This document shows, in pieces, positions 2,716 to 28,978 of a DNA stretch of 29,320 bases. Position 1 is the first letter of the stretch. Each line of letters starts with the position of its first letter. Position numbers and translations under genes: made by a program. The notes under the pieces were generated by a model. The model did no database searches. It had not been told where the DNA came from and worked only from the letters and a program-made list of their open reading frames with translations. Origin of the DNA: a virus; IMG/VR virus record IMGVR_UViG_3300049218_000484, positions 1 to 29,320 of that record. One strand, 5' to 3'.

Positions 2716-3114
2716 ATGACGTCCATCGATATTGGCAATGCCGCCCAGGTCACCAGCGCCGTCATCAGTTTCTGTTCGCTGGTCGCGGTCATCTGGATCG
2801 CGACCCGCCAAAGCGCCGCCGTCCGTCAAGCCGCCGCCGCCGCCGCGGAAGCGAAGACCGCAGCGCTGGTCATGGAAAAGGCGGCCCGCTGGCACGAGAC
2901 CGAAATAGGCATCGCCGTGATCGCAAAGGTCGATAAGAACGCCACCCGACTCGACATCGTCAAAGAGCGGCTGATCCATGTCGCCACCTGCGAAGACGTG
3001 GCGCGCTTAAGCGGCCAGATCGACTCGGTCGCCCGCGCCAGCAACCAGGCCGCCGCCGGTGTAGACCGCCTGGAGGCGTTCTTCCTGGCTGAAGGCGTGC
3101 GGGGCGGCCGCTGA
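2716..3114 (+). CDS. DUF2730-like membrane-anchored coiled-coil protein (Mu gp25 position)
   Basis: 132 aa. One N-terminal transmembrane segment (about residues 12-30, VTSAVISFCSLVAVIWIAT) is followed by a long Ala-rich helix and a probable coiled coil to the C-terminus. The layout and place, directly before the gp26-like winged-helix gene, match the DUF2730/gp25 family of Mu-like phages, whose role is not established. It could also work as an i-spanin-like protein, since it has one TM plus a coiled coil and lies beside the lysis genes. Its stop overlaps the next start (ATGA-type, 3114). Confidence 0.65.
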   Translation: MTSIDIGNAAQVTSAVISFCSLVAVIWIATRQSAAVRQAAAAAAEAKTAALVMEKAARWHETEIGIAVIAKVDKNATRLDIVKERLIHVATCEDVARLSGQIDSVARASNQAAAGVDRLEAFFLAEGVRGGR

Positions 3115-3416
3115 TGAGCCCCGCCGATTACGTCCTGGCCAACCGGCGCCTGTGCATCCTGAAGATCCTCGCCGACGACGGCGGCCATTCCAACGAAAGC
3201 GTGATCGAGACGGCGCTCCTGTCGCTCGGGCACCACGCCGGCACCGACCGCGACGCGGTGCGGACCTGGCTGCGCGAGCTTGAGACCTCGGGCACCATCA
3301 CGCTCGAATACTACCGCGACAAGGTGATGGTCGCCCACCTCACCAGTCGTGGTTTGGCGGCGTCCCAGGGGCGCATCGCCATCGACGGCGTCGCCAAGCC
3401 CGCGATCGGCGGGTGA
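3114..3416 (+). CDS. Winged-helix phage protein (VpaChn25_0724 family, Mu gp26-like)
   Basis: 100 aa. The sequence ADYVLANRRLCILKILADDGG, then NESVIETALLSLGH and RDAVRTWLRELETSGTITLE, forms a typical winged helix-turn-helix: two helices, a recognition helix, then a beta wing (about residues 10-85). The family is a standard member of Mu-like late clusters between DUF2730 and DUF3486. Its exact role is not known; DNA binding linked to packaging or gene control is plausible. It overlaps the upstream gene and is one base from the downstream one, so translation is probably coupled. Confidence 0.75.
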   Translation: MSPADYVLANRRLCILKILADDGGHSNESVIETALLSLGHHAGTDRDAVRTWLRELETSGTITLEYYRDKVMVAHLTSRGLAASQGRIAIDGVAKPAIGG

Positions 3417-3417
3417 A

Positions 3418-3978
3418 ATGTCGGGACCGTCGCGCCACCGGCCTTCGTCCATAGACCGCCTGCCGGCCGAGCTGCGCGATGTGATCGGCGAGCTGTTCGT
3501 GCAGGGGCGCTCGATCGACGAGATCGTGGCGCACCTGCGCACCATGGACGTCACCATCAGCCGCTCGGCCATGGGCCGCCACACCAAAAGCCTGGCCGCG
3601 ATGCAGGAGCGCCTGGCGCACAGCCGCGAAATGGCGCGAGCCCTGGTCTCGCGCTTTGGCGAAGAGCCGGACAGCAAGATCAACCGTCTCAACATCGAGA
3701 TGCTGCACGGCATCGTGCTCCAGATCGCCACCGCGACCGAGGAAGACGAAGACGGCGACACGCGCCCTGTCACCTTCACACCGGAAGACGCCAAGTTCCT
3801 GGCCCAGGCGCTGAACCAGCTCGCCAACGCCCAGCGCATCGACCAGGTGCGCACGCTCCAGCTCCGCAAGGAGATGGCGGCCGAGGCGGTGAAGGAAGTC
3901 GAGAAGGTCGCCAAGACGGCGGGCCTGACGCGCGAGACCGTGGCCCAGATCCGCGAAGCCGTGCTGGGGGTCGCATGA
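3418..3978 (+). CDS. DUF3486 family protein (Mu gp27-like, probable small terminase)
   Basis: 186 aa from ATG 3418, one base after the previous stop. The N-terminal region is a helix-turn-helix: SSIDRLPAELRDVIGELFVQ, then RSIDEIVAHLRTMDVTISRSAMGRHTKSL (to about residue 60), matching DUF3486. The C-terminal half is long helix with charged repeats (EEDEDGD, then LQLRKEMAAEAVKEVEKVAK). In Mu-like phages this protein sits directly before the large terminase and is taken as the small, DNA-recognising terminase subunit. Here an extra ORF separates the two. The frame is open 23 codons further upstream, but that overlaps the previous gene. Confidence 0.85.
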   Translation: MSGPSRHRPSSIDRLPAELRDVIGELFVQGRSIDEIVAHLRTMDVTISRSAMGRHTKSLAAMQERLAHSREMARALVSRFGEEPDSKINRLNIEMLHGIVLQIATATEEDEDGDTRPVTFTPEDAKFLAQALNQLANAQRIDQVRTLQLRKEMAAEAVKEVEKVAKTAGLTRETVAQIREAVLGVA

Positions 3979-4535
3979 GACGGGAGCGTCGAGGGCAGCC
4001 GCGACGGCCGTGGACCGCCGCCAGCCGTCGAACCGAACGCCACAGCTTTGCCGAGGAAAGGGCGCCCTGCGGCTCGCGCGGCCTTCTGCCAGATTTCCAC
4101 TTCGGGAATGTCCACAAGGTTCATGCCGCTTTCAGCGAAATGCTCGTCGCGCGGGTTCGGCCGCATCTTCTTGTCATCTGGGAGCCGCTGAAGACCAAAG
4201 CCCCATCGCCACCGAAGGCCGCGCCATTTTGCTGCTATCGGCAAACGGTCATCTTCTATTGCTCACCGTATTATGTCCGTCCCTGGAAGCAGCGCTGGCG
4301 TGGCGCCGGTGGCCGGCTGCAAATTTGCAGGCCATCGTTTGAGGTGTGGGACACCGTTGAATCGGGACTGACCTGGGACGACGTCGTCGAATTTGAGGGT
4401 GAGCGTTTCCAGGTCGGCGGCGGGACCGTGGTCTGGTCTAAAGGTCGCTGGTGGATGCGACACGGCGCGCGTCGGATGTCTGACTCGCTGGCCGGAAAAA
4501 CGGGCTGGGTCGTTGTCGATGAGGCTGCGGCATGA
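3975..4535 (+). CDS. Unrecognised protein between the two terminase genes
   Basis: 186 aa. It starts in an ATGA overlap with DUF3486 and ends in an ATGA overlap with the large terminase, so the frame fills the gap exactly. The C-terminal part (about residues 95-180) looks like a real folded domain: RPSFEVWDTVESGLTWDDVV, VEFEGERFQVGGGTVVWSKG and GRWWMRHGARRM. The first 55 residues are Arg-rich and less protein-like, so ATG 4140 (131 aa) is an alternative start. Codon use is less GC3-biased than in neighbouring genes. In Mu, gp27 and gp28 are adjacent, so this is an insertion. I do not recognise a family. The reverse strand here (4244 down to about 4005) also reads as plausible protein. Confidence 0.5.
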   Translation: MRRERRGQPRRPWTAASRRTERHSFAEERAPCGSRGLLPDFHFGNVHKVHAAFSEMLVARVRPHLLVIWEPLKTKAPSPPKAAPFCCYRQTVIFYCSPYYVRPWKQRWRGAGGRLQICRPSFEVWDTVESGLTWDDVVEFEGERFQVGGGTVVWSKGRWWMRHGARRMSDSLAGKTGWVVVDEAAA

Positions 4536-6043
4536 GCGCCGCCGCCAATCCCGGCCCGTTCCCAGCCGCCGAAGCCCAGCTCTCGCCGGCCGTGGCCGCC
4601 TTGCCGAAGTCCGACATCCTGCTCGGCTATCAGCGCAAGTCGATCATGTTTTCGACCGTGGCGCCGTTGCTGGTCATCCCCAAGAGCCGGCGCGTGGGCC
4701 TGACCTGGGGCTTTGCGTCCGAAGCGGCGCTGGCCGCTTCAGCGTCGCGCCAGGCCGGCGGCATGGACGTCTGGTACATGGGCTATGACAAGGAGATGGC
4801 GCGGGAGTTCATCGACGTCGTCGCCATGTGGGCGCGAGCGTTCGGTATCGCGGCTCGGGCGGTCGAGGAAGTGGTGCTCCAGGACGAGGAGGGCGACGTT
4901 GGCGCGTTCCGCATCCGCTTCGCCTCGGGCTTCGAGGTGGTGGCGCTGCCGAGCGTCGCCCGCGCGCTGCGCGGCAAGCAAGGCCTCGTTATCATCGACG
5001 AGGCGGCCTTCCACGCCAACCTGGCGGCCGTGCTGAAAGCGGCGATCGCGCTCCTGATGTGGGGCGGCCGGGTGGTGGTGATCAGCTCCCATAACGGGGT
5101 CGATAATCCGTTCAACCAGCTCATCGACGAGATCGAGAGCGGCGAGCGGCGCGGCAAGGTGTTCACGATCACCTTCGACGACGCCGTCGCGGACGGCCTG
5201 TACGACCGCGTCGCGCTGGTCATGCGCGGCAAGGGCCAGACGCCGCCGACGAAGGAAGACTGGATCGCGGAAATCCGCGAGACCTATGGCGAGTCCGCCG
5301 CCGAGGAGCTGGACTGCATTCCGGCGACCGGCTCTGGCTCCTGGATCAACGCCGAAGATATCGCCGGCTGCGAACATCCCGACGCCGGGCGGTCGGAGCT
5401 GTATCAGGGCGGCCTGGTCTATCTGGGCCGAGACGTCGCCCGCCGGCGCGATATCGCGGCGATCTGGGCGTTCGAGCTGGTCGGGCCGATCCTGTGGCTG
5501 CGGGAACGCTGGGAAAAGCGCGGCGCGACGTTCGCCGAGCAGGATGCCGCCGAAGACGAGATGTATCGCCGCTACCGCGTGGCGAAGGAGAAGATCGACC
5601 AGACCGGCATGGGCGAAAAGGTGGTCGAGGACAGCCAGCGCCGGCACGGGACGACGCGAGTCGACGGCGTGCTGTTCACCGGCCCCAACCGCCTCGATCT
5701 GGCGATCGGCTATCGCGACCGGTTCGAGGCGCGGCTGATCCGCATCGCGCCCGATCCGGCGATCCGCACCGACCACCGCGCCTTGAAGCGCGCCGGCCCC
5801 GACGGCAAGGCGCTGATCGAGACCGGCGACATCCACGCCGACCTGTTCTGGGCCGGCGCGCTGGCTGTGTCGGCGGCCAGCCTTGGCCCGGTCGCCTACG
5901 CCTACACCGCCGCCGCGCGCGTCACGGCCCTGGACAGCTCCGGCGCGGGCGAGAGCGACGACGACCGCGACCTGGTGCTCACCAGTCGCGGGTTCGAGCG
6001 CCGCACGGCGCCGCCGCGCGACTTCGGGCGGGGGACCTGGTGA
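4532..6043 (+). CDS. Large terminase subunit (Mu gp28-like)
   Basis: 503 aa, a normal length. The N-terminal ATPase shows a degenerate Walker A (PKSRRVGLTW, residues 50-59), a Walker B GLVIIDEAAFH (151-161, with D156 and E157) and a coupling motif VISSHN (183-188). The C-terminal nuclease starts around LGRDVARRRDIAAIW (298-312, D301), with DQTGMGEKVVE (356-366) and DIHADLFWAGALA (433-445) as further acidic/His motifs. The enzyme cuts and translocates phage DNA into the prohead. The start is in an ATGA overlap with the preceding ORF, and the stop overlaps the next ATG (TGATG). The family assignment is firm from motifs and position. Confidence 0.92.
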   Translation: MSAAANPGPFPAAEAQLSPAVAALPKSDILLGYQRKSIMFSTVAPLLVIPKSRRVGLTWGFASEAALAASASRQAGGMDVWYMGYDKEMAREFIDVVAMWARAFGIAARAVEEVVLQDEEGDVGAFRIRFASGFEVVALPSVARALRGKQGLVIIDEAAFHANLAAVLKAAIALLMWGGRVVVISSHNGVDNPFNQLIDEIESGERRGKVFTITFDDAVADGLYDRVALVMRGKGQTPPTKEDWIAEIRETYGESAAEELDCIPATGSGSWINAEDIAGCEHPDAGRSELYQGGLVYLGRDVARRRDIAAIWAFELVGPILWLRERWEKRGATFAEQDAAEDEMYRRYRVAKEKIDQTGMGEKVVEDSQRRHGTTRVDGVLFTGPNRLDLAIGYRDRFEARLIRIAPDPAIRTDHRALKRAGPDGKALIETGDIHADLFWAGALAVSAASLGPVAYAYTAAARVTALDSSGAGESDDDRDLVLTSRGFERRTAPPRDFGRGTW

Positions 6044-6282
6044 TGGCGAAGGTTCACGACCGTCATCCCCGAATTCCGTGCGTTGTGTTGGGCTGCCGGT
6101 GCGGCGCTACCTGCTACCCGCCCGGACATGAGATCATCTGTCCGAAGCATTATCGCCTGGTCGACGCCAATCTGAAGGCGCTGCGCCGACGCGCCCGGCG
6201 CAAGTTCAAGGGCCGTTTCGAGCAGATGCTTTGGCGCAAGATCGTGCGCCAGGCCACCGAACGCGCCGCGGGGCTTGCCTGA
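6043..6282 (+). CDS. Small Cys/His-rich basic protein, 79 aa
   Basis: Starts in a TGATG overlap with the terminase and ends in a TGATG overlap with the portal gene. The N-terminal 36 residues hold C13, C18, C20, C24, H29, C33 and H36 (CVVLGCRCGATC, then HEIICPKHY), which suggests one or two bound zinc ions. The rest is a basic helix (ALRRRARRKFKGRFEQMLWR). This looks like a nucleic-acid- or protein-binding zinc protein. Its place between terminase and portal suggests a part in packaging, but this is inference. The frame is open far upstream, but that stretch overlaps the terminase in another frame. Confidence 0.7.
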   Translation: MAKVHDRHPRIPCVVLGCRCGATCYPPGHEIICPKHYRLVDANLKALRRRARRKFKGRFEQMLWRKIVRQATERAAGLA

Positions 6283-8033
6283 TGGTCGGCTGGACGCCTC
6301 CCGACGCGACCGGCCGCTCGCCGCCGCCCCTGGTCGACCATCTCAACCGGCCGATCGACTTCGGCGTGTTGAAGCATGCGATCTCGGCACCGTCGCTCTC
6401 GACCATGCGCTCGGTCTACACCTCGGCAGTCAGCCGCGACATGAACCCGCGCAAGCTCGCCGCCATCCTGCGCGGGGCCGAGAGCGGCGACGTGCTCAGC
6501 TACCTGGAGCTGGCCGAGCAGATGGAGGAGAAGGATCTCCACTATCTGTCGGTGCTGGGCACGCGCAAGCGCGCGGTCAGCCAGCTCGACATCGAGGTCG
6601 AGGACGCCGACGAGAGCCCTGAGGCCAAGGCCTGCGGCGACCTTTTGCGCGACTGGCTGAAGCGGGAAACCCTGCAGCCCGAGCTGTTCGACGTGCTGGA
6701 CGCGGTGGGTAAGGGATACTCCATGTCGGAGATCGTCTGGGAGATGTCGGCCAAGGAGTGGCGGCCGGCGACCCTGTCGTGGACCGATCCGAGGTTCTTC
6801 CGCCTCGACATGGTCGATCTCCGCACGCCGCTTCTCTACGTCGACGGCGGCCAGTACGAGATGGCGCCCCCGTTCAAGTTCGTCTCCCACGTCCACCCGT
6901 CCAAGTCCGGCCTGCCGATCCGGTCTGGCCTGGCGCGGCCGGCGGCCTGGGCGTGGATGTTCAAGAACTACAGCATGAAGGACTGGGTCGCCTTCGCCGA
7001 GGTCTATGGCCTGCCGATCCGGGTGGGCAAGTATGGCCCCGGCGCGACGGACGACGAGCGGGCGATCCTGCTGCGCGGCGTGCAGTCGATCGGCTCCGAC
7101 GCCGCCGCCATCATCCCCGACTCCATGACGATCGAGTTCATCGAGTCCAAGTCGGGCCAGAGCGACGGCGCCCTGTTCCGGGAGCTGGCCGACTTCTGCG
7201 ATCAGCAGATGTCCAAGGCTGTCCTGGGCCAGACGGCGACCACCGACGCCATCGCCGGCGGCCATGCGGTCGGGCGCGAGCATCAGCTTGTGCGCGACGA
7301 TATCAAGCAAGCCGACGCGGTCCTGATCCAGTCGACGCTCAATCGCGATATCGCCCGGCCGATGGTGATGCTGAACCGCGGGCCGCAGGAGGCTTATCCG
7401 CGCTTTCGGGTGAAGACGCCGGACTGGGTCGATATCCAGGCGGTGGCCAACGCCGTAGGGACGCTGGCGCCCTATGGCCTCCGGGTAAAGCAAGCGGAGC
7501 TGCGCCAGAAGTTCGGGCTCACCGATCCGGACGAGGGCGACGAGGTGCTGAACGCCGGCGCGCCGGCGGCGCTGGATAGCGGCGAGGTCGGCCAGGGTCC
7601 CGGCGCGCCGCCGCCGCCAGGGGTGCGCAGGCCGGCTCAGATCAAGCCCCGCGCCGACGGCAAGGACCCGATCAAGGACGCCACGCCCACGCCCGCGACG
7701 GCGCTTGTGGCCCAAGCTAGCGGGGGGGGCGGAGTCGCGGCCTCTTACGCCCTCTCAAACCCTCTTAAACCGCAAACGGGGTCGGGGGGGCTCGACGAAC
7801 TGACCGAAGCGTCGCTCGATGAGTGGGAGCCGCTCGCCGCAGCGGTCGCCGCGCCGATCGAGCAGCTCCTGACCAACGCCTCGAGTCTCGAAGAGGTGCG
7901 CGACGGCCTGGCCGCCGTGATCGCCGCCATGGATCCGACCGCGACCGCCGAGCTGATGGCGCGCGCGGGCTTTGCAGCCCGCATCGCCGGCCTGGTCGGC
8001 ATGGCGCCGAACGGAAACGGAGGCGGCTCGTGA
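6282..8033 (+). CDS. Portal protein, DUF935 family (Mu gp29-like)
   Basis: 583 aa from ATG 6282. The DUF935 core is evident: MNPRKLAAILRGAESGD, LSVLGTRKRAVSQLDIEVE, GKGYSMSEIVWE, KDWVAFAEVYGLPIRVGKYG and LGQTATTDAIAGG. The protein forms the dodecameric ring through which DNA enters the capsid. After about residue 440 comes a Pro/Gly/Ala-rich linker encoded partly by G8 (7722-7729) and G7 (7784-7790) tracts, then a helical C-terminal domain (LDELTEASLDEWEPLAAAVA, then MDPTATAELMARAGFAARIA) typical of the family. Its stop overlaps the GTG of the next gene. The homopolymers would be prone to slippage. Confidence 0.93.
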   Translation: MVGWTPPDATGRSPPPLVDHLNRPIDFGVLKHAISAPSLSTMRSVYTSAVSRDMNPRKLAAILRGAESGDVLSYLELAEQMEEKDLHYLSVLGTRKRAVSQLDIEVEDADESPEAKACGDLLRDWLKRETLQPELFDVLDAVGKGYSMSEIVWEMSAKEWRPATLSWTDPRFFRLDMVDLRTPLLYVDGGQYEMAPPFKFVSHVHPSKSGLPIRSGLARPAAWAWMFKNYSMKDWVAFAEVYGLPIRVGKYGPGATDDERAILLRGVQSIGSDAAAIIPDSMTIEFIESKSGQSDGALFRELADFCDQQMSKAVLGQTATTDAIAGGHAVGREHQLVRDDIKQADAVLIQSTLNRDIARPMVMLNRGPQEAYPRFRVKTPDWVDIQAVANAVGTLAPYGLRVKQAELRQKFGLTDPDEGDEVLNAGAPAALDSGEVGQGPGAPPPPGVRRPAQIKPRADGKDPIKDATPTPATALVAQASGGGGVAASYALSNPLKPQTGSGGLDELTEASLDEWEPLAAAVAAPIEQLLTNASSLEEVRDGLAAVIAAMDPTATAELMARAGFAARIAGLVGMAPNGNGGGS

Positions 8034-8512
8034 GCTTCGCGGCCAGCTTTTCCATTGTCAGTCCGGGCGGTCCCTATACAGACGCCAATGGCGCGGCCCA
8101 AGTCGCTCCGGCGAACACGCCGCGGTTCGATCATACGGCGCAAGGGGTCGCCCTGGGACTGTTGGTGCAGGGGTTGCCCGAGGCCAGCGCGGCGGACGTG
8201 GTGACGATCGACGCCGGCGTCGTCGCAAACCAGGCCTGCACGATCCTGCACGTTTTGAAGCAGCCATCGGGATCCGTCGTCGCCAAGGCGATCTGGAGCC
8301 GCAATCCGACCCAGACGATCAATGCGCTTTTGAACGCCAAGGGTTGGCATCAGTCGATCGTCGTCGTCGGTCGCGCGCTGCGCGTGACGGACGGTGCGGT
8401 GACCTTTCGCGGCCAGACCTATGGCGTGGGGCAATATCTGGCGGTCGATCTGGCCGGCGCCGACGGCCTCGGCGCCAACGTGCCGGCCGAAACCCTGATC
8501 GTAGGAGCGTGA
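8030..8512 (+). CDS. Small phage structural-like protein, 160 aa
   Basis: GTG at 8030 overlaps the portal stop (GTGA). The N-terminus reads FSIVSPGGPYTDANGAAQVA, then NTPRFDHTAQGVALGLLVQG. The 'PRFDH....G.ALGLLv' pattern occurs in beta-rich phage tail and appendage proteins; this is pattern recognition, not an alignment. The rest is beta-strand rich with regular Val/Gly spacing, and there is no membrane segment. It precedes the giant fibre gene with almost no gap and may be expressed with it. It could be a small virion appendage, an adaptor for the fibre, or unrelated cargo. It has no counterpart at this place in Mu. Confidence 0.6.
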   Translation: MSFAASFSIVSPGGPYTDANGAAQVAPANTPRFDHTAQGVALGLLVQGLPEASAADVVTIDAGVVANQACTILHVLKQPSGSVVAKAIWSRNPTQTINALLNAKGWHQSIVVVGRALRVTDGAVTFRGQTYGVGQYLAVDLAGADGLGANVPAETLIVGA

Positions 8513-8514
8513 CG

Positions 8515-11500
8515 GTGAAACGGAGCCTGTTACATCGTCTCGTTATCGCGGCTGTTGCGGCTGTCGCGGCTGTCGCAACTGTGGCGTCGGTATCTGGGGC
8601 GCTGGCGCAAACCAACCCCATCCAGCTGACCCAGACCAACGAGCTGGCCTCGCTAAACGACCAGACTGTGGTCGCGGTCCAGCAGCCAAACGGCCCCTTG
8701 AGCCACGCCTCGCTCCCGGCCCTCAAGAGTTACGTCTTTTCCGAAAGCGCGCTGCCAGCGGCCAACCTGACGGGCACGGGGACCAATGTGCTGGCCGGCC
8801 TTCAGGCGGCGACCAACAGCGCCAATGGATTTCTGACGGGGGGCGGCGCCGCCACCGCGCTTGGTCTGCAGTCCGCCGCCTACCAACCCACAACAGCCTT
8901 CGATGCGGCCGGGGCGGCGGCGACGGCGTTGGCGTCGGCGCAGGCCTCAGGCTTACAGAGGTCCAACAACCTCAGCGACATTGCCTCGGCCGCAACAGCC
9001 CGTACGAACCTCGGCCTCGGGTCTGCGGCGACGCAGCCCGCCACAGCCTTCGATGCGGCCGGGGCGGCCGCGACGGCCCAGGCTACGGCAATCTCGACGG
9101 CCGAAGCCGCCAGCTTGCAGAGGGCCAACAACCTCAGCGACATTGCCTCGGCCGCCACAGCCCGCACGAACCTCGGCCTCGGGTCTGCGGCGACGCAGCC
9201 CACCACAGCCTTCGATGCGGCCGGTACAGCGGCGACCGCCCAATCTACGGCGATCTCGACGGCCGAAGCCGCCAGCTTGCAGAGGTCCAACAACCTCAGC
9301 GACATTGCCTCGGCCGCAACAGCCCGCACGAACCTCGGCCTAAACGGAACCGGCTTCGCCGCCGCCGCCGCCAACCCCGTCAACACCACGGGAGGGTTGG
9401 CGACCTATCAGATCGCATCGTCGTCTACCTTAGGGTTGGTCAAACCGGACAATGCGTCGATCCTCGTCAACGGATCCGGGACGCTAACGGCGACGGCGGC
9501 CAGCGTGGGGGCGTGCGCTCTGACAGGGTGTACTTATTCTGGGCCTATATTGAGCAGCGGAAGCGCCACGTTTCCGCTTTACTATACGACCGGGGCAAAT
9601 GCAGGATATTCGTTCGGAGATAGAAACGCATCCGACACGGCGACTAATTTACTTTATAGAATCAATAATTATGTAGATTTGTATGACACCACCTTTGGAA
9701 ACCTTCTAAGCATTAACGCCGTCACCGGCGCCACCGTCATTGCGGGCAGCTTAACTGCAGGCGTAAGCTATACAGCGGGCTTGGCGGTAAACGGATGCTC
9801 GTTAACAGGCCTATATTTCTGTGCCGCGGGACAAGCCGCCTTTACGGGGGTCTTGAGCATCCAATCCGGAAACCAATTTGGCGGCGCATACGGCGGCGAG
9901 CTGGAGCTCACCAATACGTCTTCTGGCGCGACAAACCCAAATAAAATTATTCGGTTGGGCTCAACGGGCGATTTGCAAATCGTGAACAGTGCAAATTCTT
10001 CGATCATTGCGGATTTGACCGATGCCGGTGTTCTAAATTTGACACAGACGCCTACCGTCAACGGCGTACCGTTGGCCAACTCCAGTTCGACCTATTCAGC
10101 GGGGTCGTGTCTGACCTTGTCAGGTACCGTCTTCAGTCTGACTGCCTCCTGCAGTACACTGACCAACTACGCCACTCTATCTGGCGCCACCTTTACAGGT
10201 CCGGTCAACGGCACGCTGGCGTCGTTTAGTGGCTCCGGCTGGCAATATTTCCTCGGCAATACGGTCGGCAATACGGGAAGCGCCTTCCCCGCAGGAACGG
10301 CGGCGGGGGGCTTGGGCGTAGCCTGGAACGTTACGAATGGCCAAGCCGAGGTTGATTTTTTGAACCGGACCAACCTCGGCGACCCTTCAGGTTTCGCCTT
10401 CTACCAGCAGCCCGCCGCCACCGGCACGCCGACGCAGATCGCCTATTTGGGATCGGCCGAGGATACTTTTCCGGAGCCTATTTATGGAACCGGCTCGACG
10501 AACACTTTGAGCTGTCCTGTGAACTTTGACAGCAACGGCCCGACAGCCGAGCTTTGCGCCATTACGTCCACCACGGCATCCGGAAACAAATCGCAGTGGG
10601 GATGGATGGTCAGCAACACCTCCAACGCTGTAAGCACATCGGGGGCGGAGGCTGGGGCGCTATATGTGGCCAATAATTGCCTTTCGGGCGCACCCAAGTG
10701 CTGGGGAATGGCCCTTACCAATGTGTCGGAAGCGGGATCGGCAGGCGGACAAGCCTTAGAACTTATATCTGCGAACGGAAGTTGCGATCCAGGCGTTCCC
10801 TGGCATCCCACGACATCTTGTATTACTCCCACGATCGGAATGCTAATTGATGGCGTCGGCAATTCCACATCTAACGTTTATGCAGGAGAAGCTGCATTTT
10901 ACATTGTCAATTCATCAACGGGTGCAATATTTCACGCCGGAATGTTTATAGGAAACAATCCAGGCGGAGCAAGCAGCGTAGATCAGTGCGCCGTTTGCGA
11001 TTATTCCGGCGATTACACTGTAATGAGAGTTGGCGGCACGCACACTCACTTTTATTATCCTGAGTCGAATTACACGCCGGCCAGCTATACCTCGACGATG
11101 TGGGATGGGGAATTGACGATAGGCGACTCGTCGGAGTCAGGCCCCATGATCAGCGTCGCCAACAGTACGGCGACTTGCGTAGGTTCGCCGTCGACCGGCG
11201 CGTTTGGGTGGTCTTGCTCGTCGGATGCACGGCTCAAAACCGACTACGGCCCAGACGGCGATGAGCTGGCCTACATCAACAGCCTGCCTATCGACCGCTA
11301 CAAGGTCAACGCCACTGGCGAGATCACGGTCGGACCCATCGCTCAGCAACTCCAAAAGGTCCATCCCGAGATGGTCCATGAGGTCGAGGACGACCTGATC
11401 CCGGCCGATAAGGAAAACGCCGCCGGAACCATGCTATCGGCCGATCAACCAAATATCTGGAAACTCACGCGCGGCATCCAGGAAGTGTGGTCTCACGACC

Positions 11501-11646
11501 TCGACCAAGACGCCGAAATCGCCGCCCTCAAGGCGCTGACACGCAGACAACAATCCCAAATCGCAGCGCTCAGTTCGGGCGCCAGATGGACGCCTGCCAA
11601 CGACAACGGCGTGCTCGGCTTTTTACGTCACTTAATCGCTCGCTAA
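8515..11646 (+). CDS. Large fibre-like protein with Sec signal peptide and C-terminal peptidase S74 chaperone
   Basis: 1043 aa from GTG 8515; GTG 8509 in the same frame adds two residues. Residues 1-31 form a convincing signal peptide: K2, R3, H7 and R8, a hydrophobic core of A/V/I, and GALA before Q32. Residues about 120-280 hold repeats of NNLSDIASAATARTNLGLGS, a motif common in phage fibres, encoded by tandem DNA repeats. The middle (about 330-900) is beta-rich, with 16 Cys. The C-terminus is a peptidase S74 intramolecular chaperone: S903-D904-A-R-L-K908 (Ser/Lys spaced +5 as in endosialidase), then GPIAQQLQKVHPEMV and a coiled coil. Autocleavage would release the last 140 residues after trimer folding. 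It is probably a trimeric surface or virion fibre. Codon use turns AT-richer from about 9530 to 11200. Confidence 0.88.
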   Translation: MKRSLLHRLVIAAVAAVAAVATVASVSGALAQTNPIQLTQTNELASLNDQTVVAVQQPNGPLSHASLPALKSYVFSESALPAANLTGTGTNVLAGLQAATNSANGFLTGGGAATALGLQSAAYQPTTAFDAAGAAATALASAQASGLQRSNNLSDIASAATARTNLGLGSAATQPATAFDAAGAAATAQATAISTAEAASLQRANNLSDIASAATARTNLGLGSAATQPTTAFDAAGTAATAQSTAISTAEAASLQRSNNLSDIASAATARTNLGLNGTGFAAAAANPVNTTGGLATYQIASSSTLGLVKPDNASILVNGSGTLTATAASVGACALTGCTYSGPILSSGSATFPLYYTTGANAGYSFGDRNASDTATNLLYRINNYVDLYDTTFGNLLSINAVTGATVIAGSLTAGVSYTAGLAVNGCSLTGLYFCAAGQAAFTGVLSIQSGNQFGGAYGGELELTNTSSGATNPNKIIRLGSTGDLQIVNSANSSIIADLTDAGVLNLTQTPTVNGVPLANSSSTYSAGSCLTLSGTVFSLTASCSTLTNYATLSGATFTGPVNGTLASFSGSGWQYFLGNTVGNTGSAFPAGTAAGGLGVAWNVTNGQAEVDFLNRTNLGDPSGFAFYQQPAATGTPTQIAYLGSAEDTFPEPIYGTGSTNTLSCPVNFDSNGPTAELCAITSTTASGNKSQWGWMVSNTSNAVSTSGAEAGALYVANNCLSGAPKCWGMALTNVSEAGSAGGQALELISANGSCDPGVPWHPTTSCITPTIGMLIDGVGNSTSNVYAGEAAFYIVNSSTGAIFHAGMFIGNNPGGASSVDQCAVCDYSGDYTVMRVGGTHTHFYYPESNYTPASYTSTMWDGELTIGDSSESGPMISVANSTATCVGSPSTGAFGWSCSSDARLKTDYGPDGDELAYINSLPIDRYKVNATGEITVGPIAQQLQKVHPEMVHEVEDDLIPADKENAAGTMLSADQPNIWKLTRGIQEVWSHDLDQDAEIAALKALTRRQQSQIAALSSGARWTPANDNGVLGFLRHLIAR
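8899..9345 (+). repeat. Imperfect tandem repeats (150/162 bp) in the fibre gene
   Basis: The phrase CTCAGCGACATTGCCTCGGC starts at 8971, 9133 and 9295 (162-bp spacing), and CGATGCGGCCGG starts at 8901, 9051 and 9213 (150 then 162). The units are nearly identical at the DNA level and encode about 50-54 residues each: AATARTNLGLGSAATQ, AFDAAG and ISTAEAASLQR. The first unit is 12 bp shorter. This points to recent duplication or homogenisation by recombination, which could change fibre length. Confidence 0.9.
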
Positions 11647-11659
11647 AGGAAAAACAGAG

Positions 11660-11929
11660 ATGGACACGTCAGACGCTGGATATTTTTGTATATTGCTAGC
11701 TTTCCTTGTGGTTGCATTTATTTTTCCTTTTGGTTTAATTTCAATTATTAAAGATAAAGATGCTAAAATTAAAAGATTAGAAAGTGGTAAAGATACAGAT
11801 TTAATAAAATTGACAAATATTATAATAGAAACAAGTAAGAACGTTCCCGAAAAAGATGCGTTCAAAATTGCAAAGAAAATTATCGATTTAGGATGGCAAC
11901 CCCCAAGCTTTAACTCGCGTCGTTTCTAA
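11660..11929 (+). CDS. AT-rich gene for a small single-TM membrane protein, 89 aa
   Basis: ATG 11660 follows AAGGA at 11646-11650. Residues about 8-30 are strongly hydrophobic (FCILLAFLVVAFIFPFGLIS) and form one transmembrane helix; a Lys-rich cytoplasmic helix follows (KDKDAKIKRLESGKDTDLIK), then a region ending GWQPPSFNSRRF. By hand count the gene is about 31% GC (83 of 270), in a window that is otherwise strongly GC-rich, and it uses AAA, ATT, TTA and ATA freely. That marks it as a recent import. I do not recognise a family. Being just downstream of the secreted fibre, it may be a moron gene, for example an exclusion-type membrane protein, but this is speculation. Confidence 0.75.
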   Translation: MDTSDAGYFCILLAFLVVAFIFPFGLISIIKDKDAKIKRLESGKDTDLIKLTNIIIETSKNVPEKDAFKIAKKIIDLGWQPPSFNSRRF

Positions 11930-11949
11930 CCGTAAAGGGAGCATCCCTC

Positions 11950-12219
11950 ATGTTCGCAACTCTTCTCGGCGCCGCGGCTGCGGCCAGCGTCGCCACCGCC
12001 CAGCCGGTCAAGCCGCCGGAAAAACTTCACCTCGATCTGCCGACGGCCTATGTGGAAGCGTTGATCGACGCGGTGAAATGGGACGTCGACCAACCCAATC
12101 ACCACGCCCTGACCTATGACCAGAAGAGCGAAGTGATGCAGGCGATCGTCCAACAAGCCGCGCCGCAGATTCGCGCAACGCCTGCGCCTGCCGCACCTGG
12201 TCCTGAGCAAAAGAAGTAG
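11950..12219 (+). CDS. Small hypothetical protein, 89 aa, hydrophobic N-terminus
   Basis: ATG 11950 is preceded by AAAGGGAG (about 11933-11940), a good ribosome site. Residues 1-18 (MFATLLGAAAAASVATAQ) are hydrophobic and could be a weak signal sequence, although positive charges are missing. The remainder is helical: KLHLDLPTAYVEALIDAVKW, then DQKSEVMQAIVQQAAPQ, with a Pro/Ala/Lys tail. GC content returns to the level of the phage backbone. It is the last gene of the insertion before MuF. No family recognised. Confidence 0.6.
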   Translation: MFATLLGAAAAASVATAQPVKPPEKLHLDLPTAYVEALIDAVKWDVDQPNHHALTYDQKSEVMQAIVQQAAPQIRATPAPAAPGPEQKK

Positions 12220-12231
12220 GGGTCGCGCCCG

Positions 12232-13542
12232 ATGGCGCCGGTCAAGTTCGCGCCCGTTCAGCCGACCGACGCCATCGCCTTCTTTCGGGCCAAGGGGTTC
12301 AGGATAGGGTTCGCCTGGCAGGACATCTGGCAGGAGGAGCACGCCAAGGCTTTCACCGTCGCCAAGGCGATGGACGCGGACCTGCTCGCCGACATTCGCG
12401 ACGCGGTCGATCAGGCTCTGGCCAACGGCACGACGTTCGACACGTTCAAGAAGGAGCTGACGCCCAAGCTGAAAAGCCGCGGATGGTGGGGTCAGAAGCC
12501 GCTAATCGACCCTCAGACCGGCGAGCCCCAGCTCGTGCAGCTCGGCAGCGATCGGCGGCTAGCGACGATCTTCGATATCAACGTCCGCACTGCCTACGCC
12601 GCCGGCGCCTGGGTCGGCTTTCAGCGCTCGAAGCGTTATCTGCCTTATCTGAAATACAACCACCTGGACCCGCAGCCGCACCCCAGACCCGAGCACCAGG
12701 CGTGGAACGGGATCATCGTGCATATCGACGATCCCTGGCTCGACGAACACTATCCGCCCTGCGATTGGGGCTGCCATTGCTGGATGACGGCGCTCACGCC
12801 CAGCCAGGCGCGGCGCGAAAAGCGCTGGGGCGAGAAGCCGGCGGTGTTTCCGAAAAAGGCCTACCGTAATCCACGTACCGGCCAGGTGGTCGAGCTCGAG
12901 CAGGGGATAGGGCCTGGCTGGGCTTACAACGTGGGAAAGTCGTATCTCGAATCCCTCAGCCCGCCGCCCCTTAAGCCCCGCGCCGTCACGGCCGCCGAGC
13001 CCGGCGTGGATCTCGACGAACTGCAACGGGGCCAGCCCTCGGCCGAGCCGCTGACGCCTTTGCCGTCGCCCCGGGTTGTGCCGGAGCGCCAGATTCCGAT
13101 TCCCGGCGCCGACGAGGACGAGGCGATCGCCAACTTCCTGGGCGGCTTCGCGGCCTCGCCTGACGAGACCCTGCTGTACGCCGACCAGGCCGGCGATCGC
13201 CTCGCGATCGGCCCCGGCCTGTTCCGCGACGCCGCCGGCCACGCTGTCCCGCTGCCGGCCGAGCTGGTGAAGGCGCTCCCCGTCATCGGCGTGGCGCTGC
13301 GCGAGCCGATGGAGATCCGCAGCGTCTGGACCTTTGGGCCGCCCCGAGCTGGCCAACCGCCGCTCTCCATGCTCGTGCGCCGTTATATCGCGCGGGTGAT
13401 GTTCGCCGGGAAGGCGGTCGATGTCGTGGTCGATGTCGGCAAACAGGGCTGGACGGCGCGGACCTCGATCGAGGACGCGGCGTTGCGCCTGGACGACTGG
13501 CGGCGCGGCTTTGTGCTGTGGCCGCCGAAACCGCAGCCCTGA
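12232..13542 (+). CDS. MuF head morphogenesis protein (Mu gp30-like) with C-terminal PBECR-like nuclease-fold domain
   Basis: 436 aa. Residues 1-240 are a classical MuF: DAIAFFRAKGFRIGFAWQDI, IFDINVRTAYAAGAWVGFQR, then HQAWNGIIVHIDDPWLDEHY and CDWGCHCW (177-184). MuF proteins bind the portal and enter the capsid, and some are ejected with the DNA. After a Pro-rich linker (245-290) there is an extra domain (about 295-430): DETLLYADQAGDRLA, REPMEIRSVWTF, LVRRYIARVMFAGKAVDVVV and GWTARTS. This 'P.EI..W...RRYI......VVV....W.T' pattern recalls PBECR (phage-Barnase-EndoU-Colicin-RelE-like) domains found fused to MuF; that link is moderate. The upstream gap is 12 bases; downstream is a 128-base gap with a hairpin. 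Confidence 0.9.
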   Translation: MAPVKFAPVQPTDAIAFFRAKGFRIGFAWQDIWQEEHAKAFTVAKAMDADLLADIRDAVDQALANGTTFDTFKKELTPKLKSRGWWGQKPLIDPQTGEPQLVQLGSDRRLATIFDINVRTAYAAGAWVGFQRSKRYLPYLKYNHLDPQPHPRPEHQAWNGIIVHIDDPWLDEHYPPCDWGCHCWMTALTPSQARREKRWGEKPAVFPKKAYRNPRTGQVVELEQGIGPGWAYNVGKSYLESLSPPPLKPRAVTAAEPGVDLDELQRGQPSAEPLTPLPSPRVVPERQIPIPGADEDEAIANFLGGFAASPDETLLYADQAGDRLAIGPGLFRDAAGHAVPLPAELVKALPVIGVALREPMEIRSVWTFGPPRAGQPPLSMLVRRYIARVMFAGKAVDVVVDVGKQGWTARTSIEDAALRLDDWRRGFVLWPPKPQP

Positions 13543-28000: not shown

Positions 28001-28978
28001 ATGCACGCGATCGACACCGCCACGGCTGTCAACGGCGAATTCGTCGACGCCGATCCGCTCGAGGGCGTCGCCGGCACGGAGGCCGACGCCGCGTGGCTGA
28101 ACGACCTCCAGAACAATGTTTTGGCCGTGATCGCGGCCGCCAATATCGCGCCGACCAAGGGCGACTCTCAGGACCTGGCTAACGCCATCGCCGAGCTGAT
28201 CGCCGCCGCCGTCGGCCCTGCCGTCCAGAGCGCCGTCAATACGGCGGTCGCCGATTTGCCGACGGGCTCCGGCTCCGGAACGGCCGCCAACCAGGTCGCG
28301 CCCTACGGGATGCCCACCCGCGCGGCGCTCGCCACCCCCGATCTCAACGCTCTGAATCAATCGGGCTTTTGGAGCGCGCCGGCCGGCGTCGCCAACATCC
28401 CCGCGGGCGCCAACCCTGGCGTCGTGTTCGCGATCGGCAACACGGCCATGAGCGGCGCGGACGGCGCCCAGATTTACATCGATCTGACCAGCGGTTCGGT
28501 GTGGACCCGGCCCCGCCTGGCGGGCGCGTGGGGCGCGTGGACCCTTCTGAGCTACACAGCGCCGCAGTCTTTTTCGTATGGCGACACCGACAATTGGGGC
28601 GTGTGGTATCAAACCACCGGCGAGTTTGTGCAGGGCGGTTTTATCGAGGGGCCGTTCCCGGAACAGATCGTCGCGGTTGCGTTTCCCTACGCCTTCGACG
28701 CCTGCTACGGCATCAAGGGATGGAGCTATAATCCGACCGCCAACATCAACATCGGCAACTGGATCGACGAGGTATCGATCACCAATACGTCCGCTCAAGT
28801 GTTGGTAAATCGGGTCTCGAACAGCTCGCCCAATCTGCCCGGGTTCAAATGGGAGGCGCGCGGCAAGTGCGCCGCGATGCCGGTTCTTTCCAGCACCTTA
28901 AATTCCGGCGGAAGCTCGGGGTCTTCCGGGTCGAGCGGCGGGACGGGCGGACTCTCCGGCAACGGCAATCAACAGTAG
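28001..28978 (+). CDS. Tail fibre / receptor-binding protein
   Basis: 325 aa. The N-terminus (IDTATAVNGEFVDADPLEGV, then GTEADAAWLNDLQNNVLAVI) is the baseplate-attachment type seen in Mu-like fibres; residues about 100-160 contain YGMPTRAALATPDLNALNQS and GFW, then GQIYIDLTSG-like strands and WTRPRLAGAWGAWTLL. The C-terminal receptor-binding part has GDTDNWGVWYQTTGEFVQGG and FPEQIVAVAFPYAFDACYGI, and ends in a Ser/Gly-rich tail (GSSGSSGSSGGTGGLSG). It probably binds the host surface. No tail-fibre assembly chaperone is visible in the window. Confidence 0.82.
   Translation: MHAIDTATAVNGEFVDADPLEGVAGTEADAAWLNDLQNNVLAVIAAANIAPTKGDSQDLANAIAELIAAAVGPAVQSAVNTAVADLPTGSGSGTAANQVAPYGMPTRAALATPDLNALNQSGFWSAPAGVANIPAGANPGVVFAIGNTAMSGADGAQIYIDLTSGSVWTRPRLAGAWGAWTLLSYTAPQSFSYGDTDNWGVWYQTTGEFVQGGFIEGPFPEQIVAVAFPYAFDACYGIKGWSYNPTANINIGNWIDEVSITNTSAQVLVNRVSNSSPNLPGFKWEARGKCAAMPVLSSTLNSGGSSGSSGSSGGTGGLSGNGNQQ

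Follow-up and report, generated by a model that had tools for sequence, protein, structure and literature searches.

A phage-type S74 fibre with a Sec-type signal peptide in the late region of a Mu-like virus

Tailed phages are assumed to build their virions entirely in the cytoplasm, which raises the question of what a fibre of phage type, headed by a strong Sec-type signal peptide, does among the late genes of such a phage. The fibre gene (positions 8515–11646, forward strand) starts with GTG, encodes 1,043 amino acids, and has matches in both Pfam and PHROGs. The gene lies in a virus record of 29,320 bases whose late region is Mu-like; this whole record is referred to here as the window. 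Other genes of the window encode a gp27-like small terminase (3349–3978), a large terminase (4532–6043), head protease, major head protein, sheath, tape measure, and baseplate as well as a canonical tail fibre that begins without a signal peptide (28001–28978). The reading frame of the fibre with the signal peptide is open upstream to position 7972, and this extra stretch overlaps the portal gene and the gene that follows the portal. The preceding gene ends 2 nt before the GTG codon. An AGGAG sequence 7 nt upstream of this codon, together with the upstream stop, supports the start at 8515.

The N-terminus of the fibre reads VKRSLLHRLVIAAVAAVAAVATVASVSGALA|QTN. Residues 1–31 (8515–8607, forward strand) contain K2, R3, H7, and R8, a hydrophobic core that is long (~20 residues, L9–G28), and the sequence ALA ahead of Q32. 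The AxA motif places the proposed cleavage point at GALA|Q32 (ALA|QTN). N-termini were evaluated with a home-made scorer that considers a positive n-region, an uncharged hydrophobic core, and small residues at positions -3 and -1. By this scorer, the window fibre has the positive n-region, hydrophobic core, and AxA motif of Sec/signal peptidase I substrates, with a value of 11.05 compared with 10.8 for E. coli OmpA. Among 283 core proteins of head and tail from Mu-like relatives, the same rule called none as signal-bearing, and none of 3,626 internal positions reached 8.8 when treated as starts in four such fibres. The first-pass annotation had proposed a signal peptide on the basis of these same residues, and the score and controls confirm it. 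Neither a twin-Arg motif nor a lipobox is present in the window signal peptide, so Sec and signal peptidase I would be the expected route.

With the fibre as query, six loci were retrieved from 2.9 million viral contigs. Two of these are uninformative for the N-terminus: L002, a near-identical phage with a fibre truncated by the contig edge, and L006, where the truncation is at the start. Rather than starting after residue 31, a possibility that had been raised against the signal peptide, the fibres at all four loci with an intact N-terminus (L001, L003, L004, and L005) carry a signal peptide at their start. These signal peptides are short and classic with AQA|Q-type ends, and they are unlike each other and unlike that of the window, except for the related L004/L005 pair. 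The phages that carry them differ in type; L003 carries a stabilisation gene of the P22 gp10 type, L005 encodes a head protein of its own (phrog_1357), and L001 represents another type. Within the fibre tip (window residues 505–1019), identity is 69% to L001 and 39% to L003, while the mature N-terminal domains differ among the window, L001, and the set formed by L003, L004, and L005. Exchange of tips behind phage-specific N-terminal domains is the usual pattern among virion fibres. Directly behind the L001 signal peptide comes a match to a domain with which many phage tail proteins and spikes begin, at residue 2 (phrog_13893, E = 5e-18; tail spike phrog_1171), and which corresponds to domain 1 of the solved tailspike Dpo31 (PDB 28lx, E = 3.7e-11). 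The position of this match at residue 2 elsewhere indicates that an ordinary N-terminal spike domain was given a signal peptide in front in L001. Domains of this kind usually hold the spike on the virion.

Close fibre relatives were absent from isolated phages, plasmids, and GTDB contigs beyond shared repeats. No signal peptide was found on the fibres of phiM5, Octadecabacter DB virus 2, and Manatee phage, which share core genes with L003, or on the S74 fibres of isolated Bradyrhizobium, Rhizobium, Roseobacter, and Methylophilales phages. The earlier view that a signal peptide is unexpected on a virion fibre holds up. Of 22 proteins from the phages that share core genes with L003, the one called signal-bearing was a 186-amino acid open reading frame by the holin of Manatee phage (L199 12044).

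Behind the signal peptide, the fibre comprises a mature N-terminal domain (residues 32–107; 8608–8835), shaft repeats that are common to other phage fibres (~residues 108–290; 8836–9384), a region with 16 cysteines (9514–11217) within which the tip domain starts at ~residue 505, and a peptidase S74 autochaperone (residues 903–954; 11221–11376), all on the forward strand. Residues 32–107, which differ from their counterpart in L003, L004, and L005, could possibly provide a contact with the virion or an adaptor; residues 32–130 have no family match in PHROGs. The PHROGs matches of the fibre are to tail-fibre families (phrog_1980, E = 1.4e-19). Pfam assigned PF13884 (Peptidase_S74) to residues 903–954 at 34.5 bits (cut-off 22), in agreement with the C-terminal S903-D904...K908 motif recognised by the first-pass annotation. 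The catalytic residues S903, D904, and K908 are all present in the window fibre and are invariant in L001 and L003, and the predicted self-cleavage of a trimeric S74 fibre holds up at this level. S74 was the sole Pfam domain, and no C-terminal YadA-type outer-membrane anchor was found in the fibre. A search of the PDB gave a match limited to the repeat region of a short tail fibre. An AlphaFold model of the C-terminal half was discarded (pLDDT 29.5).

The periplasm is where disulfides form; the pattern of cysteines is therefore expected to mark exported proteins. The 16 cysteines of the window fibre fall into eight pairs (334/339, 428/436, 532/546, 667/681, 722/729, 757/769, 825/828, and 888/901) whose members are 3–14 residues apart. 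Every gap within a pair is shorter than every gap between pairs in the window fibre (chance 1/6435), in L001 (1/1716), and in L003 (1/462), a rule that the L005 fibre does not quite satisfy. Four of these pairs are found unchanged in L001 and L003; the last pair, 888/901, lies just ahead of the S74 cut site. With duplicates and incomplete proteins set aside, cysteine counts at the fibre-relative loci and in the L005 group were even in 32 of 36 proteins with a signal peptide (4 odd; binomial p = 2e-6), compared with 67 of 156 without one (89 odd); the contrast has a Fisher p of 2e-7. Cysteine content was 1.62% and 0.73%, respectively. We consider it very probable that the window fibre is exported, and nearly as probable that it contains disulfides.

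The fibre gene belongs to a cassette of four genes that separates a Mu-type portal (PF06074 in Pfam; 6231–8033) from a Mu gpF-like head protein (Pfam and PHROGs; 12232–13542). Directly 5' of the fibre is a fibre-associated (ARFDH-type) protein (8030–8512), and 3' of the fibre are two proteins of 89 amino acids, one with a single TM segment (11660–11929) and the other with a weak Ala-rich signal peptide (11950–12219); all of these genes, like both flanks, are on the forward strand. The genes of the cassette are separated by 2–20 nt, and promoter-like and terminator-like sites at the cassette occur at or below chance level, so it is most likely co-transcribed with the late genes. The fibre gene thus lacks the promoter and terminator of its own that are expected of a moron. 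In most Mu-like relatives, which occur mostly in Alphaproteobacteria such as Caulobacter and Paracoccus, the portal directly adjoins gpF, and the cassette is thus an extra insertion between conserved phage genes, a trait that it shares with morons. The G+C content of the fibre gene (59%, versus 69% for the portal) is consistent with recent arrival. The gpF-like protein ends in a PBECR2 nuclease-like domain (46 bits, cut-off 27), which makes it a MuF-type fusion.

The same slot between portal and gpF holds different fibres without signal peptides in L010, L016/L063, L060, and L061. In L010, a homologue of the ARFDH-type protein precedes the signal-less fibre; further copies of this upstream protein were not found in the scanned viral contigs. 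We claim no likeness between the N-terminal domains of the window and L010 fibres (p = 0.10). In L008, another Mu-like phage, a 300-amino acid protein with a signal peptide and 8 cysteines (11692–12594) occupies this slot right after the portal. The 89-amino acid membrane protein of the window has a homologue directly 3' of the exported fibre of L003, where the fibre ends at 12352 and the homologue starts at 12366. L003 and L005 also have in common a small Ala-rich signal-peptide protein 3' of the fibre (E = 1e-15). The signal-peptide protein of 89 amino acids in the window resembles this companion in layout, but similarity is not significant and homology is not claimed. The fibre and the small envelope proteins seem to be exchanged together, as a module, by the Mu-like phage and other phages.

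A wider set of such proteins emerged from a 719-amino acid gene of L005, as phages with relatives of this gene carry many signal-peptide proteins. They account for 33 of 120 open reading frames within 6 kb downstream of homologues of this gene, in the tail-fibre region, compared with 4 of 144 upstream, and several proteins of the group have tail-fibre and collar family matches behind the signal peptide. One fibre module, NGxxADAxQVM, exists in signal-bearing and signal-less versions at one tail-fibre locus. A cysteine pair surrounds the module in 9 of 12 copies with a signal peptide (10 of 13 with the borderline L131) and in none of five without one (L118, L119, L123, L147, and the second copy in L115), a contrast with a Fisher p of 0.007–0.009 that overstates independence because the sequences are related. 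Where the module occurs in isolated phages, namely those of Klebsiella, E. coli, and Pseudomonas, it lacks a signal peptide. In L118, an S74 fibre without a signal peptide (2903–4093) lies directly behind the homologue of the 719-amino acid gene, in the slot that holds signal-peptide fibres in relatives. The exported tail-fibre region ends repeatedly with a member of a family of four-cysteine signal-peptide proteins of ~150–175 amino acids (L115, 16224–16736; L116, 7439–7966; L147, 5301–5828).

Filamentous-phage coat proteins pIII and pVIII are Sec-exported virion proteins with cleavable signal peptides, and pIII contains disulfides. Filamentous phages assemble in the membrane without lysis, whereas tailed phages are put together in the cytoplasm and leave the cell by lysis. 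The window fibre is thus like pIII and pVIII in bearing a Sec signal peptide on what may be a virion protein and unlike them in the lysis-free membrane assembly that they serve. S74 virion fibres such as endosialidase NF/K1F, the T5 L-shaped fibre, and phrog_1980 tail fibres also combine a C-terminal S74 autochaperone with repeats and a place in a structural operon; those checked from isolated phages differ from the window fibre in having no signal peptide and 0 or 1 cysteine. Lambda Lom is an outer-membrane barrel expressed in lysogeny (PMC12309495). Like Lom and other morons, the window fibre is a phage-encoded protein with an export signal, near fibre genes, but unlike Lom it is an S74 fibre encoded among closely spaced late genes. 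Among described cases, it is closest to the mosaic adhesive trimer (MAT) fibres of Bdellovibrio bacteriovorus, which are displayed on the cell surface (PMC10769870). Their S74 subgroup has a signal peptide, a phage-type trimeric fibre, and a self-cleaving S74 chaperone with an SDxxxK motif, and cleavage has been proven for Bd3182 (PMC10769870). The window fibre shares this combination at the sequence level. MATs differ in that they are bacterial genes for predation with a conserved, beta-rich domain of ~130 amino acids after the signal peptide, and the paper makes no mention of disulfides (PMC10769870); the window gene is in a phage late operon between a Mu-type portal and gpF rather than on the chromosome of a predatory bacterium. 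By analogy, the window fibre would work like a MAT fibre up to export. In alphaproteobacterial genomes, S74 domains also occur together with type IV pseudopilin-like N-termini (GFTLxELAIV; L086, L090, and L091). Their presence on pseudopilins and exported proteins makes it plausible that the S74 chaperone works outside the cytoplasm.

From the signal peptide, S74 domain, cysteine pairs, recurrence in unrelated phages, and late-operon position of the fibre, we infer a model that includes translocation, disulfide formation, and docking at lysis. The fibre would be made late in infection together with the head genes and sent through Sec, and signal peptidase would remove residues 1–31. In the periplasm, the chains would trimerise on the S74 chaperone, neighbouring cysteines would form disulfides, and the chaperone would release itself by a cut ahead of S903. 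Stapled and mature, the receptor-binding fibre would then wait in the periplasm and dock on particles once lysis mixes the compartments. We regard this model as a whole as evenly balanced, with docking on the virion marginally favoured. We know of no demonstrated precedent for docking at lysis in tailed phages. Three observations count against the model. The Mu-like phage also has its ordinary signal-less fibre at 28001–28978, so the exported one could be an accessory; the long h-region of the window signal peptide could serve as an uncleaved anchor; and the isolated-phage S74 fibres checked have no signal peptide.

The separate fibre at the canonical place is also what one would expect if the exported protein were an adhesin, receptor blocker, or decoy, sent to the cell surface or medium and not part of the virion. 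The cell-surface display of Bdellovibrio signal-peptide S74 fibres (PMC10769870), the companion membrane protein conserved beside the L003 fibre, and signal-peptide S74 proteins in some alphaproteobacterial genomes point in the same direction. The first-pass annotation had suggested that such a trimeric fibre may be exported to the surface of the lysogen. Export of the fibre is supported by the relatives and the cysteine pairing, but a surface location instead of the virion is less well supported: the gene sits in a late operon without its own promoter or terminator, no outer-membrane anchor domain was found, exported and non-exported versions of one fibre module occur at one tail-fibre locus, and a virion-anchor-type domain follows the L001 signal peptide. 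This spike domain, together with the signal-less S74 fibre of L118 in an exported-fibre slot, makes an exported virion fibre more likely than a lysogen adhesin. Residues 32–130 of the window fibre match no family, so its virion role is suggested by its relatives. A surface or secreted adhesin appears rather unlikely, and the lysogen-surface idea less likely than a late virion fibre.

The ~20-residue hydrophobic core (L9–G28) would also suit an N-terminal segment that stays uncleaved and keeps the fibre anchored in the inner membrane or, alternatively, buried in the particle. The short, classic signal peptides of the relatives with AQA|Q-type ends and the restriction of paired, even-numbered cysteines to the signal-peptide set argue against such an anchor, which we consider improbable. 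Fibre proteins are Ala-rich and in-frame alternative starts lie further in, so the hydrophobic N-terminus might be an accident of an Ala/Val-rich fibre or of a wrong start codon. This reading is largely refuted by controls and relatives, and we reject it as extremely improbable: none of the 283 control proteins or 3,626 internal positions scores alike, all four relatives with an intact N-terminus carry a signal peptide, and the ribosome-binding site is good.

Our preferred reading is a virion fibre that is made late, exported to the periplasm for oxidation and self-cleavage, and docked on particles at lysis. No report of signal peptides on tailed-phage fibres was found in the open literature, subscription papers being beyond the reach of the search; the phage signal-peptide literature that was found concerns lysins, spanins, and Lom. 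Dozens of related uncultured viruses with the same sequence traits suggest that in some tailed phages the folding of receptor-binding fibres takes place outside the cytoplasm. It is tempting, if a little less secure than the model for the window, to extend this to a set of uncultured tailed phages, podovirus-like phages and a Mu-like phage among them, in which capsid and tail would be made in the cytoplasm and receptor-binding fibres in the oxidising periplasm, the two being joined only at lysis, with the exported module moving between unrelated phages. If such fibres are exported and disulfide-stapled, they may fail to fold correctly when expressed in the cytoplasm in the usual way, host Sec and Dsb machinery would be used in phage assembly, attachment of the fibre would be an event of lysis, and the evolution of phage fibres would be tied directly to that of exported bacterial fibres such as the Bdellovibrio MATs.
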